A stretch of DNA of 41,177 nucleotides from an uncultured Thermomicrobium sp. GTDB taxonomy: Bacteria; Chloroflexota; Chloroflexia; Thermomicrobiales; Thermomicrobiaceae. The stretch covers positions 1-41,177 of the forward strand of contig CALIMB010000031.1 in the NCBI GenBank assembly GCA_938028665.1, read 5' to 3'. Every line of letters starts with the position of its first letter. Position 1 is the first letter of the stretch. The notes beneath the pieces are model-generated. The model did no database searches, was not told the origin of the DNA, and saw only the letters and a program-made list of their open reading frames with translations. Below are positions 1-8,247 of this stretch, one piece after another. A program made the position numbers and the translations under genes.

Positions 1-587
1 TATGATGCCGCAACCACCTGAGTGCCAACGACAAAAACACGAACGTCGCGCCCCGGCTTCTCAACATATTCCTGGAGATAGAAGACACCATGGTGAAAGG
101 AGCCGAGTGTCCGCTTGTGCTGCAGCACCTCCCGCGCTGCAGCTGGCGAATTCACGCGGGCGAGCAGTCGCCCCCATGAGCCAGTCACCGGCTTAATCAC
201 CGCTGGATACCCTAACTGCTCCAAAGCCGCAAGAGCACTTTCCACGTCGAAGGCAACGAGCGTACGGAGCGTGGGAACACCAGCTGCTGCCAAGAGTCGC
301 GTCGTTAGCACCTTATCGTCGGCAATCGCGGTCGCCTGACTTCGGTTGACCGTGGGGATTCCAGCAGACTCGAAGAGGCGTAGTGCTACCTGGCCCCGGC
401 TGTGTGCCATGCACCGGTCAAGGACCAGATCAACTTGCGGCCAGCTGTGTTGATTCGTCAGATCGAACACGAGCTGGCGGTCATACAGCCGCACAACCTC
501 TGCGCCACGCTCAGCCAGCGCACGGAGCAAGAGTTTCTCCTCTTCTCGGACATGTGAGAGTAACACCCCGATCCGCGGCGTCCTCAC
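1..587 (-). CDS. lysX: LysX, alpha-aminoadipate--LysW ligase (3' end outside window)
   Basis: ATP-grasp ligase of the RimK/LysX family. In the LysW pathway it joins the alpha-amino group of alpha-aminoadipate (or of glutamate, in ArgX-type enzymes) to the C-terminal glutamate of the carrier LysW. Only the first 195 residues are visible; the gene runs off the left edge. Visible features are the N-terminal DRCMAHSRG block near residue 60, the IPTVNRS strand, and the ATP-binding segment [15 protein letters not shown] near residue 140. [12 protein letters not shown] lies near the cut. These match the block order of Thermus LysX, recalled from family knowledge. The start is GTG in a GTGA overlap with the lysK stop, so the two are translationally coupled. 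It is the last visible gene of the lysW operon. Substrate choice (aminoadipate versus glutamate) cannot be settled from the visible part. Confidence 0.88.
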
Positions 588-1678
588 GACTCGTCCCCCC
601 ATCGCCCACCCACAATTTGTAATGCGATCCGCTCTATCGCCCGCTGCAACACGGCGATACCGCGCAAGAACTCGTCGATCGCGATGTGCTCGTTCGGCGT
701 ATGGTCTAGCCGCGAGTCACCCGGGCCATAGGCAACAATCGGACAGCCCCACGCTGGACCGACGATATTCATGTCTGAGGTTCCCGTTTTGACTTTCAGT
801 TTCGGCTTCCCCCCGAGCTCGCGGATCGCTGAGAGGAAGGCCGCAACCAATGGCGACCGCTTGTCGACCCGAAATCCTGCCGCGTTCACCGTCACCACGA
901 CTTCTCCAGCACCAGCAAGCCGCTGCGCCACAGCAACCGCCTGTTCTGGTGGGAAATCAGGGGGCAAGCGCAGGTTGGCCCGTAACCAGGCCTGTTCTGT
1001 CAGCCCATCCCCATTGGTGACGATGCTCAGAAGGGTCGGTGTCACGCAATCGAAGGCACGCGCCCGTCCAACATTCTGCTTCTCGCACCAGCTGACGAGG
1101 GCGTTCCAGAAACACACTGCATCCTCTGCTGCCGTTGTGCTTGGTCCAGCAGCATGCGCTGACGGACGGACGATCCGATACTCAATCGCCACTGATCCTT
1201 TGTAACCGAGTACAACGCCATCCCAGCCACTCGGCTCACCGATGATCACCGCATCCGGACGCGGGTGATGCTCAACGAGCCAATTCGCACCGCGTGAGCT
1301 CATCACTTCTTCTTCCACCGCACCCACCACAGTGAGGCGAATACCCGGCGGAAGGATGGCTCGAGCACCGGCCAACACAAATGCTGCAAGCGGCCCCTTG
1401 GCATCAACGGCACCACGGCCATAGAGCAACCCGTCCACCTGCCGTACCGGGATCCGACCCGGCACAGTATCGATATGCCCAAGCAGCATCAGCTCACGTG
1501 GGCCGGATCCCCGGGTCCCAATTGCGTTCCCCGCCTCATCCTGTGTCGCCTGGTAGCCGAGCTCCGTCATGCGAGTGCACAACCACTCGACGGCCGCCGC
1601 TTCTTGGCCCGAGAGACTCGGAATTCGGAGGAACGCTTCGAGGAACGCAGCCGCTTCGATGGCAAGCTCGGTTGTCAT
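584..1678 (-). CDS. lysK: LysK, [LysW]-lysine (or ornithine) hydrolase
   Basis: M20-family zinc peptidase, 364 residues, expected to release lysine (or ornithine) from the LysW C-terminus in the last pathway step. The metal and catalytic motifs are all present in order: [10 protein letters not shown] (first metal His and catalytic Asp), [14 protein letters not shown] (bridging Asp), [14 protein letters not shown] (general-base Glu pair), [15 protein letters not shown], and [11 protein letters not shown] (final metal His). ATG at 1678 is chosen because it follows a GAGG ribosome site and leaves one base after the stop of the upstream ATP-grasp gene. A longer in-frame reading upstream is only a shadow of that gene. 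The 3' end overlaps the lysX GTG by four bases. The enzyme is cytoplasmic. Confidence 0.9.
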
Positions 1679-1679
1679 C

Positions 1680-2516
1680 TCATTCCCTCGTCCCTGGGGG
1701 TGTTTGCTGAACCTGCTCCACCATGAACGCAACAATCCGGTCCGCGATCGGCACTCCCTGTTCAGCCAGCTCGCGGAACTGCACAAGATTTTCCGCGGAG
1801 AGGACAATCGGCTGACCGTCCCGCTCCACGACGTCAAGAACGTACACGCCGCTGCCGAGTCGTCCAACAAGCGCACTCGCCAGCGGCTCCCACCGTTCTC
1901 GCTTCTCGAGCGTTACCGGCATTTCGCCGCCCCGCCCTCGCACCACCGCAAGAAGCTCTGTCCCCACAATCACTATCCGTCGTACTGCGTCCGGCGCTGC
2001 GACCGCCTGCTGCACCAACACCGCCCGCTCCTCGCCGAGGACCCGTCGATGCTCCACCAGCGCCTCGGCAGCGTCAGGGTCCTCGACAAAGGCGATCGGC
2101 ATCGTCGGGTCCACCGCGAGCGATTTCAGATATACCGGGTATCCCAGTGACGCGATGGCGCGAAAGGTCGCCGCCTCTCCAAAGGCAACAATCGTCGGTG
2201 GCGTTGGAATTCCAGCCACAACAAGATGCCGAAGGAACGCCAAGCGATCCGCCAGCAGCCGCGTCGTCGCCGGGCGGTTGACGACGACCGCACCACGCGC
2301 TGCCAGCAGCGCAGCAAGCGCAGCTGACTCCGGGGTTGCCCGCTCTCGATCCAGTGCCACGGCTGGCATCTCAACCACACCTTCTGGTAAGGGGATAGCG
2401 ATGTCGTTGGGATCAACCAACTGAGTCTGCCAGCCGGCAGCAGCGAACGCTTGCTGGAGCAGGCGCTCCTCAACCCGCAGTCGCTCGGCAAGCAGCGCGA
2501 GTGTGGCCATCGTCAC
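1680..2516 (-). CDS. Divergent RimK/LysX-like ATP-grasp protein in the LysW operon
   Basis: A 278-residue protein with the size and layout of LysX: an N-terminal domain, [19 protein letters not shown], the linker PTPPTIVAF, then an ATP-grasp-like domain ([11 protein letters not shown] onwards). It differs strongly from the true LysX encoded at the left edge. The glycine-rich GSWGR segment is replaced by AVDPTMP. The SRG block of the substrate domain is missing. The C-terminal E-x-N metal pair of LysX is not aligned; the sequence there reads LSAENLVQF. The GTG start overlaps the lysW stop as GTGA. It could be an ArgX-type ligase of altered specificity, a partner or non-catalytic subunit, or a decayed copy, but the open frame and tight coupling argue for function. 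The role is inferred only from position. Confidence 0.75.
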
Positions 2517-2668
2517 TCGCCCCAGTCTTCTTCCTCAGCCGGTGCAAGTCCAAGCTCCAGCGGCTCGACCGAGAGGACTTCAAGATCAACTCCGCACTCC
2601 GGGCAGGAGACAATCTCCCCTACCTCGACGTCGGTGAGACCAAGATTGGCACCACACTCTGGGCACAT
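2513..2668 (-). CDS. lysW: LysW, amino-group carrier protein
   Basis: A 51-residue acidic protein, below the length usually listed as an ORF. It starts [11 protein letters not shown] and carries a second CPEC knuckle at residues 22-25, so a four-cysteine zinc ribbon is present. It ends EEEDWGE, the LysW signature whose terminal glutamate gamma-carboxyl is the attachment point for aminoadipate (lysine branch) or glutamate (arginine branch). The carrier protects the alpha-amino group and presents the substrate electrostatically to the pathway enzymes. The stop codon overlaps the GTG of the ATP-grasp gene that follows (GTGA). A purine-rich GGAGGGG ribosome site lies upstream of the ATG at 2668. 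First gene of the operon. Confidence 0.93.
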
Positions 2669-2700: not shown

Positions 2701-2741
2701 CCACAAAACAAATCGGCGGTGAGCTTGTGGGCTCACCGCCG
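2701..2741 (-). terminator. Intrinsic terminator in the lysW leader (attenuator)
   Basis: Read on the minus strand, an 11-bp perfect stem (CGGCGGTGAGC / GCTCACCGCCG) with a 6-nt loop is followed by ATTTGTTTTG. This is a textbook Rho-independent terminator. It lies between the promoter and the lysW start codon, so it must be conditional. Stem halves are at 2731-2741 and 2714-2724 and the U-rich tract at 2701-2713. Confidence 0.8.
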
Positions 2742-2962
2742 CTCCGGCTCTACGCTAACGCGTCAAGTCAACAGGACCATCCGCGCGCGCTTCCGGTTGC
2801 GGCAGGAGCCCCCAGGGACCTGGGGGCGGGGATAGGTGCGGGGCTAACCAGGACGGCATAACCCGTGGTGCTCAGCGCCCCGGGTTTCTCTGCCATCCAG
2901 TTCATTGTCTCTCTACCCCGTACCATCGTCCGTCCCTGGCCTCCTGCCGCAACGGGACTTGC
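2742..2962 (-). promoter_or_regulatory. Structured leader RNA upstream of lysW (candidate riboswitch or attenuator)
   Basis: On the minus strand the segment at 2941-2952 (TTGCGGCAGGAG) is perfectly complementary to 2797-2808 (CTCCTGCCGCAA). Across a small 1x3 internal loop, 2932-2939 pairs with 2812-2819 for another 8 bp. Within this 20-bp helix, 2913-2920 can pair with 2827-2835 (one bulge), and 2881-2886 with 2860-2865. A competing local hairpin can form around 2811-2828. The 2797-2808 strand can also pair imperfectly with the 5' half of the downstream terminator. A 48-codon open frame starting at 2905, with a purine-rich site before it, crosses the structure but has no lysine run. The L-box core, T-box UGGN motif and SAM or cobalamin boxes were not seen. 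Confidence 0.55.
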
Positions 2963-2968
2963 ACGTAG

Positions 2969-2998
2969 ACTCTAGCACATCGGGCATGGCCAGCGCAA
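2969..2998 (-). promoter_or_regulatory. Sigma-70-type promoter of the lysW operon
   Basis: Minus strand: TTGCGC at 2993-2998, an 18-nt spacer, then TAGAGT at 2969-2974. Transcription would start near 2962, giving a leader of about 290 nt before lysW. It is the best hexamer pair upstream of the leader helix. Confidence 0.5.
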
Positions 2999-5653: not shown

Positions 5654-5797
5654 TTAGGACTGTGGAATTGTTCCGAGGAGGGTGAGGCTTAGCGCCAGGA
5701 CTGCGCAGCTCAGAAGGCCGAACAGGACCCCCAGCAGCGCCGCAGTACGCAGTCGCGTTCGCTGTTGACTTTTACCTTTGCTGCCGAGTCGGTCCAT
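5654..5797 (-). CDS. Small single-pass membrane protein coupled to the metal ATPase
   Basis: A 47-codon open frame beginning MDRLGSKGKSQQRTRLRT, followed by one hydrophobic helix of about 25 residues (AALLGVLFGLLSCAVLALSL) and the tail LLGTIPQS. The basic N-terminus suggests a cytoplasmic N-in orientation. The ATG lies 26 bases inside the end of the ATPase gene in another frame, an arrangement typical of translational coupling. The stop faces that of the SufR-like gene. No family is recognised. It may be a regulatory or stabilising subunit of the pump, by analogy with the small peptides that accompany some P-type ATPases. It could also be a chance frame, although its composition (a positive head and one clean helix) makes that less likely. 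Confidence 0.5.
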   Translation of the reverse strand: MDRLGSKGKSQQRTRLRTAALLGVLFGLLSCAVLALSLTLLGTIPQS

Positions 5798-7892
5798 CTG
5801 CCCCGCCGAAACCTAAGCGTGCACTGTTGCCAAGGATGAACACATCCGGTACCACTTGCGCTGTCGCCGCTAATGTCGGCGGCAAAATCCCCAAGGCTGC
5901 CAAGCTTAACCCGACCAGATTGTAGAGTGCCGTCCCTGTCAAATTCACCCAGGCGGTTCCCAGCGCGCGCCGTGCCCAGCGGATGGTCTCTGGCACGAGC
6001 AGCCAGTCCTCACGGAGCAATACCACATCGGCTGTTTCAGCTGCCAGCGCCGTGCCTAGCCGCCCCATCGCAATACCCACGTCTGCTTGGGCAAGTGCCG
6101 GCGCATCGTTAATTCCGTCACCGATCATCGCCACAATGCGACCAGCCTCCTGGTATGCCCGTACAACCATCAGCTTGTCCTCAGGACGCAGCCGAGCCCG
6201 CCAGCGAATGCCGAGCGGGTCAGCAAGTGCTGCAGCAGCCTGCTCATGGTCGCCGGTAATCAGCTCGATGTCCCGAATACCCAGACGCCGCAGCTCAGCG
6301 ATCGCCTCGGCCACGCCCGGTCGAAGCTCGTCGGCAAATGCCACCACACCAAGACGCTCCCCCTCCCATTCGACAACCACTACGGTCTTGCCCTGTGCCT
6401 GTAGCTCTGCAACCGGTAACCAATCCGCCTCGTTGCTCGATGGCGCGCGAACACGCACGGTCGCACCGTCGATCCGTACCGCTACGCCGACACCGGGGTC
6501 GAAGACGAACGCTTCTGGTGCAGCAAGCGGAAGCCCTCGCTCACGCGCAGCCGCACGTATGGCCTCAGCGAGGGGATGTTCGGCGTAGCGCTCAGCCGAC
6601 GCAGCAAGCGCAAGGAATTCATCCTCACTAAAACGCCCATCTGCCACAACAATGTCGGTCACGACCGGGCGCCCCAACGTGAGCGTCCCTGTCTTGTCCA
6701 AGAGCACCACATCAACCCGAGCGAGTCGCTCGATCACCGCACCACCTTTGATCAGTACCCCACGGCGTGCTGCGCGCCCAATTGTTGCGACCAACGCCAT
6801 CGGTGTTGCCAGTGCAAACGCACACGAGCATGCGACAACGAGCACTGCCGCCACTGCAAGCGGCTCGCGACGCACAAGCAACGTCAGCAGCGCAACGCCA
6901 ACAACGACCGGGAGATACCACCCGGAGAATCGGTCGGCTACGCGTTGCAGGCGCCCAGGATTCGCTTCTGCCGCCTCAACCAATCGCACGATGCGCGCAA
7001 ACGCCGAGTCAGATGCTGGCGCTGTCGCTTGCAATCGTAGGTACCCGCTGCGGACAATGGTTGCAGCGTAGACTTGCTCTTTGGCACTGACTGCGCGGGG
7101 GAGCGGCTCACCCGTCAACGCCGCCTCGTCGATCAGTCCGGTTCCCTCGATCACTCTTCCATCCACCGGCACCGCCTCGCCGGTACGGACGACGACTATA
7201 TCCCCCGGCACAACACTCGCAGCCGGAATCTCCACCTCACAGCCGTCACGCTCGACACGGGCACGCTGGGGTGCCAACGCCGCAAGCTCGCGCAGCGCCC
7301 GTCCTGCCTGCTCTCCGGTGCTTTCCTCTAGCATCGCGCCAAGCCGCATAAACAATACAACGATCGCCGCCGCTGCCCACGCACCAACCACCATCGCCGC
7401 TAGCGCACCCAGTGTCATGAGCGTATGTGCTGTCACTCGCCGCTGTCGCGCTGCGCGCACCACGTCACGAAAGATCGGCCAGCCTCCAGCCACGCTCCCC
7501 GCAAGCCAAAGTGGCCAGGGAATCCAGTCGTTGAGACGATCCACGAATCTGGTCAACTCTGCCACCACAACGGCGAGCACGATCGCCACAGCTACTGCGC
7601 TGGTAACGAGCACGCGTCGCCAGGCACGATCCACCGTCACCGTATCCCGACCAACCGGATAACCAGTGTCAGCCAGGATTCGCTCTACAGCCGCACGATC
7701 GACACGCGACGGATCAACCACGACTGCGACCTTGCGTGCCAGCGGGAATGCCTCGACCTCGAGCACCCCCTCAACCTTTTGCAACGCCTGCTCGACATGC
7801 CGCGCACACTCGGCGCAGTCGATCCCCTCGACCGAAAGCACGAGGGTCGTCCTACCGGAACGCTCCTCAGTCGTCACACGATGCTCCCCCAT
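5772..7892 (-). CDS. Heavy-metal P1B-type ATPase with CSC transport motif
   Basis: An inner-membrane metal exporter of about 706 residues. It has an N-terminal HMA metal-binding domain (GIDCAECA, Cys 26 and 29), eight predicted membrane helices, an actuator loop with LTGEP, the phosphorylation motif DKTGTLT (Asp 399), the nucleotide-domain HP motif (AEHPLAEA) and the hinge GDGINDAPALA. The membrane metal site reads CSC at residues 355-357, where the family usually has CPC; the serine codon is TCG. The last helices carry QVVPDVFILGNS and not the Cu-type MxxSS. With the CmtR-like sensor upstream, Cd/Pb/Zn is the likely substrate class. The start is ambiguous: ATG 7892, or GTG 7877 which has better spacing from GGGGGAG. 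Either overlaps the regulator gene. Confidence 0.9.
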   Translation of the reverse strand: MGEHRVTTEERSGRTTLVLSVEGIDCAECARHVEQALQKVEGVLEVEAFPLARKVAVVVDPSRVDRAAVERILADTGYPVGRDTVTVDRAWRRVLVTSAVAVAIVLAVVVAELTRFVDRLNDWIPWPLWLAGSVAGGWPIFRDVVRAARQRRVTAHTLMTLGALAAMVVGAWAAAAIVVLFMRLGAMLEESTGEQAGRALRELAALAPQRARVERDGCEVEIPAASVVPGDIVVVRTGEAVPVDGRVIEGTGLIDEAALTGEPLPRAVSAKEQVYAATIVRSGYLRLQATAPASDSAFARIVRLVEAAEANPGRLQRVADRFSGWYLPVVVGVALLTLLVRREPLAVAAVLVVACSCAFALATPMALVATIGRAARRGVLIKGGAVIERLARVDVVLLDKTGTLTLGRPVVTDIVVADGRFSEDEFLALAASAERYAEHPLAEAIRAAARERGLPLAAPEAFVFDPGVGVAVRIDGATVRVRAPSSNEADWLPVAELQAQGKTVVVVEWEGERLGVVAFADELRPGVAEAIAELRRLGIRDIELITGDHEQAAAALADPLGIRWRARLRPEDKLMVVRAYQEAGRIVAMIGDGINDAPALAQADVGIAMGRLGTALAAETADVVLLREDWLLVPETIRWARRALGTAWVNLTGTALYNLVGLSLAALGILPPTLAATAQVVPDVFILGNSARLGFGGADGPTRQQR

Positions 7893-8247
7893 CCTCCACC
7901 CCACCAGCATCAGGCTGCCAGGCACGAGACGCGTAGCGGGGACATGCCGCAACGCCCCATGCCGTCTCTCCGAGTACGTCTTCGGCCAGGCCAAGCAACA
8001 CGGCAATCCGCTCATCACTCAGGCAGTAGGAGACAAACTGTGCCTTCCGCTCGCGACTTACCAGTCCACAGTCGCGAAGGCACCGCAAATGATTGGAGAC
8101 GTTGGTCAGCGTCAGCCCGGTACGCTCGGCAAGCTCGCCAACAGTACACGGCCCACGACGCAGCACCTCCAAAATCGCCAGGCGGCTGGGATCCGCAAAG
8201 CCGCGGAACAACTTGGCCTTAAGCTCGAGGACTCGACGATCGACCAT
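7867..8247 (-). CDS. ArsR/SmtB-family metal sensor, CmtR-like
   Basis: A 126-residue winged-helix repressor that should dissociate from DNA on binding metal. The recognition helix reads TNVSNHLRCLRDCGLV. Cysteines at 56 and 60 in this helix and at 102 near the C-terminus fall almost exactly where mycobacterial CmtR has its Cd/Pb ligands (57, 61 and 102, from family knowledge). The CadC and SmtB ligand sets are not seen. The gene is first in an operon with the P1B ATPase, which starts inside its 3' end. An inverted repeat and a promoter lie immediately upstream, consistent with autoregulation. Metal identity is inferred from the ligand pattern. Confidence 0.88.
   Translation of the reverse strand: MVDRRVLELKAKLFRGFADPSRLAILEVLRRGPCTVGELAERTGLTLTNVSNHLRCLRDCGLVSRERKAQFVSYCLSDERIAVLLGLAEDVLGETAWGVAACPRYASRAWQPDAGGVEDGGASCDD

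Follow-up and report, generated by a model that had tools for sequence, protein, structure and literature searches.

Attenuators of the trp/his/leu type combine a leader ORF with codons of the likely end product, mutually exclusive helices and an intrinsic terminator 5' of the first gene. The lysine operon of Thermus thermophilus is reportedly controlled by attenuation in a leader with lysine codons, and the lysine riboswitch (L-box), T-box and SAM leaders also choose between a terminator and an antiterminator in the leader RNA. In the speF leader of Salmonella and Escherichia coli (orf34/SpeFL), ribosome progress over a small ORF with conserved arginine codons reports arginine and decides RNA folding, the AGG-CGG codons of orf34 being the reporters for speF (PMC6386406). 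In the his attenuator of Salmonella, a single AGG caused the strongest stalling among sense codons (PMC4046918).

The leader described here precedes lysW in the window, i.e., the whole stretch of 41,177 nucleotides analyzed, which comes from a Thermomicrobium genome whose named relatives are Bacterium HR28 (HRbin28) and Thermomicrobium sp. CFH 73360. It shares the general anatomy of the trp/his/leu type, from which it differs in having one invariant rare arginine codon instead of a run, in the position of this putative sensor codon around 36 codons into the ORF, within a conserved peptide, and in the location of strand 1, which is found 5' of the ORF instead of inside it and includes the ribosome-binding site of that ORF. 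With the speF leader it has in common a small ORF, a conserved AGG and, as we propose, the reporting of arginine through ribosome progress; that leader, however, works with Rho and RNase G, serves a polyamine product and carries an unrelated HIRRT motif, whereas the present one has an intrinsic terminator and belongs to a biosynthetic operon. The Thermus leader reportedly acts by attenuation 5' of an operon of the LysW/AAA type as well, whereas in the present case arginine is the probable product and a run of lysine codons is lacking. In contrast with the L-box, T-box and SAM leaders, no Rfam match (at gathering or relaxed E-value) and no aptamer-like conservation were found.

We consider it reasonably probable that this leader is a ribosome-mediated transcription attenuator that reports arginyl-tRNA for a LysW-dependent arginine (ornithine) operon. 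The kind of attenuator is known, whereas the family and its architecture appear undescribed, and no publication dealing with attenuation, whether of LysW operons or in Thermomicrobium, was found. If this reading is correct, the leader would control a bacterial LysW operon probably serving arginine, a kind of element of which no example was found in the literature searched; one very rare codon, kept throughout the family, would do the work of the codon runs known from classical attenuators, and the anti-antiterminator helix would close over the leader's own ribosome-binding site.

Loci of relatives were retrieved through LysX-like proteins; the scan of the collection with LysX gave two near relatives only. 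The comparison set consisted of 16 loci from as many Thermomicrobiaceae genomes, belonging to five genera, and it is on this set that the ORF, its AGG codon, the long-range helix (P1, formed by strands 1 and 2), the antiterminator pairs, the terminator and the gene order were established; the absence of the ArgJ route was established in 21 genomes of the family. The order of elements 5' of lysW was identical in all 16 loci (extended -10 promoter, P1, terminator, lysW). A profile made from the 16 leader peptides had a single match in each genome (E 1.7e-15 to 7e-24), located 5' of lysW in all cases. When the search was extended to 61 genomes of the order, these were the only strong matches, the weaker ones being chance-like, with no credible match outside Thermomicrobiaceae; among 400 Chloroflexota genomes the matches were likewise confined to this family, with none credible elsewhere. 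Rfam gave nothing credible at the leader, whether gathering thresholds were applied or E values of up to 10 were admitted, and no match in the leaders of 11 relatives; L-box, T-box and SAM motifs were also without an Rfam match at the site, as the original prediction had stated.

Features of the leader and of the genes that follow it are collected in Table 1. The promoter, long-range helix, alternative pairing and terminator that had been predicted 5' of lysW, with the strand left unstated, were all present on the minus strand, a direction set for lysW and its leader by the promoter, the gene direction and the relatives. Fold energy is silent in this respect, because the plus-strand fold (z = -4.9) was as good as that of the minus-strand leader (z = -4.4; dinucleotide shuffles), and was not taken as evidence. 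The identical anatomy in the 16 loci and the lack of an Rfam match bear out the proposal of a conserved cis-regulatory RNA outside the known Rfam families, and both the compensatory changes in its helices and a promoter upstream of the long-range helix agree with it; none of the three conditions that the original prediction had named as refuting it thus applied.

Table 1. Features of the lysW leader and downstream genes (positions in the window, listed in the direction of transcription)
Feature	Positions	Strand	Details	Evidence
Promoter	2969..2998	-	-35 TTGCGC (2998-2993), 18-nt spacer, extended -10 TGC-TAGAGT (2974-2969)	
Strand 1	2930..2956	-	GTCCCGTTGCGGCAGGAGGCCAGGGAC; 5' arm of P1	Covariation with strand 2
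Leader ORF	2768..2926	-	52 codons: MVRGRETMNWMAEKPGALSTTGYAVLVSPAPIPAPRSLGAPAATGSARGWSC	Open in 16/16 loci
Conserved codons of the leader ORF	2819..2842	-	P-A-P-I-P-A-P-R	P, A, A, P, R invariant in 16/16; third positions vary
AGG codon	2819..2821	-	Invariant rare Arg codon, proposed sensor	16/16 loci
Strand 2	2799..2811	-	GGGCUCCUGCCGC; partner of strand 1 (P1) or of the terminator 5' arm (antiterminator); encodes leader-peptide residues G-A-P-A	
Strand 3	2729..2742	-	GCGGCGGUGAGCCC; terminator 5' arm; also forms the 3' side of the antiterminator by pairing with strand 2	
Intrinsic terminator	2704..2742	-	Stem-loop 2742-2714 (stem 2741-2714), T-rich stretch 2713-2704 (ATTTGTTTTG)	Terminator scan
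lysW	2513..2668	-	Amino-group carrier protein, 51 aa; operon gene 1	NCBIfam TIGR01206, 72.5 bits (cut-off 53.2)
LysX-like gene	1680..2516	-	Divergent ATP-grasp ligase, 278 aa; overlaps lysW stop codon	TIGR02144, 80.5 bits (far under cut-off 275.6)
lysK	584..1678	-	[LysW]-lysine/ornithine hydrolase	NF003367, 453 bits (above cut-off)

An extended -10 (TGN-TAnnnT) was found at the equivalent place in every locus, starting 43-51 nt 5' of the leader ORF (62 nt in one locus with a differently assigned ORF start), and transcription is predicted to start near 2962. The AGGAGG inside strand 1 is likely the Shine-Dalgarno site of the leader ORF. The CUCCU of strand 2 (2799-2811, minus strand) mimics the anti-Shine-Dalgarno of 16S rRNA and pairs with this AGGAGG of the leader itself.

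P1, which corresponds to the 20-bp long-range helix of the original prediction, comprises 13 perfect base pairs (2953-2941 with 2808-2796); when the apical CCAGGGAC/GTCCCTGG segment and the outer part were included, the duplex energy was -49.2 kcal/mol, as compared to -26.7 ± 4.2 for shuffles. In the alignment of the 16 leaders made with MAFFT, both sides had changed in 8 of the 13 pairs (a count inflated, as are the other covariation counts, by kinship among the loci, which represent around six effective independent lineages) and 88.7% of cells were paired. The covariation score was 0.498 vs. 0.235 ± 0.027 for shuffled alignments (reached by none of 500), and slid versions of the helix remained at or below 0.171. 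In an alignment-free test in which arms were swapped among nine representatives, none of 20000 permutations matched the native pairing, also when the invariant core was left out. The inner half of P1 alone performed no better than partner swaps, because this core is invariant; the support for P1 thus comes from its outer half. RNAalifold, used for the consensus fold, recovered P1 and the terminator on its own.

The leader could in principle be a ligand-binding riboswitch whose aptamer, binding lysine, ornithine, arginine or aminoadipate, is closed by P1; this helix does exist, with a 3' arm in competition with the antiterminator, as in many riboswitches. Against this, the region enclosed by P1 was mostly unconserved, with nothing resembling a conserved aptamer core, its one conserved segment showed codon periodicity in an ORF open in 16/16 loci, and RNAalifold gave no strong inner architecture common to the leaders. 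We regard a riboswitch as very improbable. The inner helices that had been proposed were not borne out, since none was convincing in all genera and the single conserved inner segment is protein-coding (pN/pS 0.24).

Strand 2 contains CUCC[U/C]GC in all 16 loci. Its alternative pairing with the 5' half of the terminator, which had been described as imperfect, exists and covaries, and the adjective understates an antiterminator of 13 pairs with one bulged U (2811-2799 with 2742-2729). Between strands 2 and 3, 90.4% of cells were paired and both sides had changed in three pairs; the covariation score was 0.162 vs. 0.091 ± 0.015, a value reached by none of 500 shuffles, and the partner-swap test gave 77 of 20000 permutations. 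Covariation was weaker for the antiterminator than for P1. A real antiterminator is favored by the GAG of strand 3: its pairing with strand 2 is kept in every locus, even in the four (G007, G009, G012, and G015) where one or two of the three letters remain unpaired in the terminator hairpin. The terminator stem (GCGGCGGTGAG...) starts 76-92 nt 3' of the AGG codon and was present, with -20 to -26 kcal/mol and a T-rich tail, in the 16 loci; no covariation was detectable in it across this set because the stem is nearly invariant. Cells scored as not paired in the alignment of the terminator partly reflected a shifted register in the genus g5, and folded hairpins were therefore used in their place. 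Antiterminator and terminator are mutually exclusive, with pairing whose conservation is indicated by the covariation of strands 2 and 3 and of P1. Of the aptamer, antiterminator and terminator states originally envisaged, three mutually exclusive pairings (P1, antiterminator, and terminator) can be retained, whereas the aptamer is not supported, the interior of P1 being the body of the leader ORF.

The leader ORF lies between promoter and terminator and has 47-53 codons across the 16 loci, with conserved start and stop and frame-specific conservation. From its start to the end of the AGG codon it spans 105-114 nt (93 nt in one locus), and its stop codon ends 48-54 nt after AGG. The motif PAxxxAPRxxx[A/T]PA occurred in every locus with synonymous variation, residues P29, A30, A34, P35, R36, P41, and A42 being invariant. 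For the motif codons P-A-x-x-P-A-P-R compared between genera, the frame of the ORF gave a pN/pS of 0.24 and the two alternative frames gave 2.1 and 1.26; the first two thirds of the region enclosed by P1, in the N-terminal part of the ORF, were unconserved in sequence, with pN/pS around 1 in all frames. The original prediction was right that a short frame without a lysine or arginine run crosses the leader; it dismissed too early a frame that is conserved and carries an invariant single AGG. GC-rich DNA commonly has open frames, and several others were open in some loci, so the structures might be real and the ORF an untranslated by-product of the RNA strands, with the switch set otherwise, e.g., by a protein. 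The frame-specific pN/pS and the conserved positions of start and stop argue against this, which we hold to be the least probable of the readings weighed here. Attenuation through lysine codons was rejected, as the ORFs contain one or two of them, at unconserved positions.

AGG accounted for 7 of the 918 arginine codons (0.8%) in neighboring genes of the same 16 genomes; in four genes of the window, it made up 5 of 225. The gap between this codon and strand 2 was 7 nt in all loci, a constant distance that fits a ribosome front edge located around 15 nt from the P site. The proposed stall site contains one AGG and no run of arginine codons, arginine as end product being itself deduced from gene content. 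A search for tRNA-Arg(CCU) with one strict pattern gave no match.

All 75 proline codons of the conserved columns were CCC or CCT, which make up 26% of proline codons in neighboring genes. This bias would also suit a ribosome-mediated attenuator responding, via CCY codons, to proline supply or to general translation status; the pathway product, however, is arginine or lysine and not proline, and the only motif codon without variation is AGG, so that we see little probability in this reading. More weight, still well short of an even chance, goes to nascent-peptide arrest, in which PAxxPAPR(xxx)APA would stall the ribosome from the exit tunnel, perhaps on binding of free arginine or ornithine, AGG being a slow codon in the arrest site and the position of the stalled ribosome selecting P1, antiterminator or terminator. 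Conservation at the amino-acid level near the proposed stall site is what such a peptide would show: P, A, A, P, and R are kept with synonymous change, the N-terminal part is unconstrained, the roughly 36 codons to the motif end are enough to fill the tunnel, and the proline codons are all of the slow CCC/CCT type (PMC8129111). An arrest peptide, on the other hand, requires no specific arginine codon, which is at odds with the invariance of AGG, a codon of 0.8% usage; moreover, the residues between PAPR and APA vary freely, and strand 2 accounts for APA at the RNA level. It is similarly doubtful, though conceivable, that PAxxPAPR represents a new class of arrest peptide sensing arginine or ornithine in the exit tunnel, with P1 closing over the leader's own ribosome-binding site and so restricting its reading to a few ribosomes per transcript.

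For the arginine attenuator that we prefer, a counterpoint is the single arginine codon, fewer than most classical attenuators have. A hungry codon alone would also leave unexplained the conservation of proline and alanine around AGG, to which slow proline codons or a nascent-peptide effect may add. The AGG could be kept partly through a local hairpin, CCCCCAG/CUGGGGG, seen in three of the five genera. This hairpin (CCCCCAG-NNNN-CUGGGGG; 2809-2826, minus strand) spans AGG in g1, g3, and g4 with a varied loop and is absent from g2; it may be a pause hairpin.

By its anatomy the leader belongs with the attenuators, and a response to tRNA charging would be expected of it. We infer AGG as the sensor, arginine as the signal, the queueing of ribosomes and the direction of control. 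Strand 2 could pair back with the 5' UTR that holds the ribosome-binding site of the ORF, giving P1, or forward with the 5' arm of the terminator. In an untranslated leader, P1 would form and the terminator would fold. With plentiful arginyl-tRNA, ribosomes would pass AGG and cover strand 2 while the terminator is being synthesized, blocking the antiterminator; after their passage P1 would close and transcription would end 5' of lysW. With scarce arginyl-tRNA, the ribosome would stop with AGG in the A site and its front edge just short of strand 2, and ribosomes queued on the start site would keep P1 open, so that strand 2 would take the terminator 5' arm and the operon would be read. Three to four ribosomes would fit into the 105-114 nt between start and AGG.

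Folding was modeled in the 16 loci with ribosome footprints masked and the terminator 3' arm not yet made. A pair of ribosomes, one at the start site and one at AGG, gave a modeled antiterminator probability of around 0.87 (median of 16), a single ribosome at AGG gave around 0.45 (median), and a ribosome on strand 2 gave 0.00 in every locus. With one ribosome at the stop codon and another at the start, this probability had a median of around 0.7, a state that would permit antitermination too. Once the complete terminator was present, it prevailed in almost every modeled ribosome state; control would thus have to be kinetic. Antitermination would need a second ribosome because the one stalled at AGG leaves strand 1 uncovered. 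A weak step of the model is how a ribosome stalled at AGG holds P1 open, which a follower on the start site would do.

The product of the operon was approached through gene content. ArgJ was absent from the genome and from the 21 family genomes searched, 14 of them of high quality. DapA, LysA, and ArgH were found in the genome; in a search for homocitrate synthase (LysS-like), the two best matches were LeuA and CimA, with two weaker matches besides, and no recognizable homocitrate synthase was present. The lack of ArgJ and of a recognizable homocitrate synthase, together with the presence of DapA, LysA, and ArgH, points to arginine: on gene content, the LysW operon probably makes ornithine/arginine and not lysine, the latter being probably supplied by the DAP route. 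That this is a lysine operon is accordingly doubtful, although family models give several operon enzymes lysine names and cannot separate the two substrates with certainty. The same division, arginine through ArgW and lysine through DAP, has been shown in a haloarchaeon (PMC10433800). If the attenuator is as proposed, the product of the LysW pathway in Thermomicrobium (arginine or lysine) would become directly testable.

The canonical LysX/ArgX is a second gene of this type located 3' of lysK and truncated by the contig end; the remainder of the operon, taken from the relative HRbin28 (L064), comprises argC/lysY, a methyltransferase, lysZ, and lysJ. The operon therefore contains two ligases, the divergent LysX-like one (1680-2516, minus strand) and the canonical LysX/ArgX, which raises the question of the role of the first. 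In HRbin28, the ORF between argC/lysY and lysZ (L064 11290-11958, plus strand) is class I methyltransferase-like. Elsewhere in the window, a predicted P-type metal ATPase (5772-8018, minus strand) adjoins a putative ArsR-type regulator ORF (7867-8247, minus strand), the two frames overlapping.
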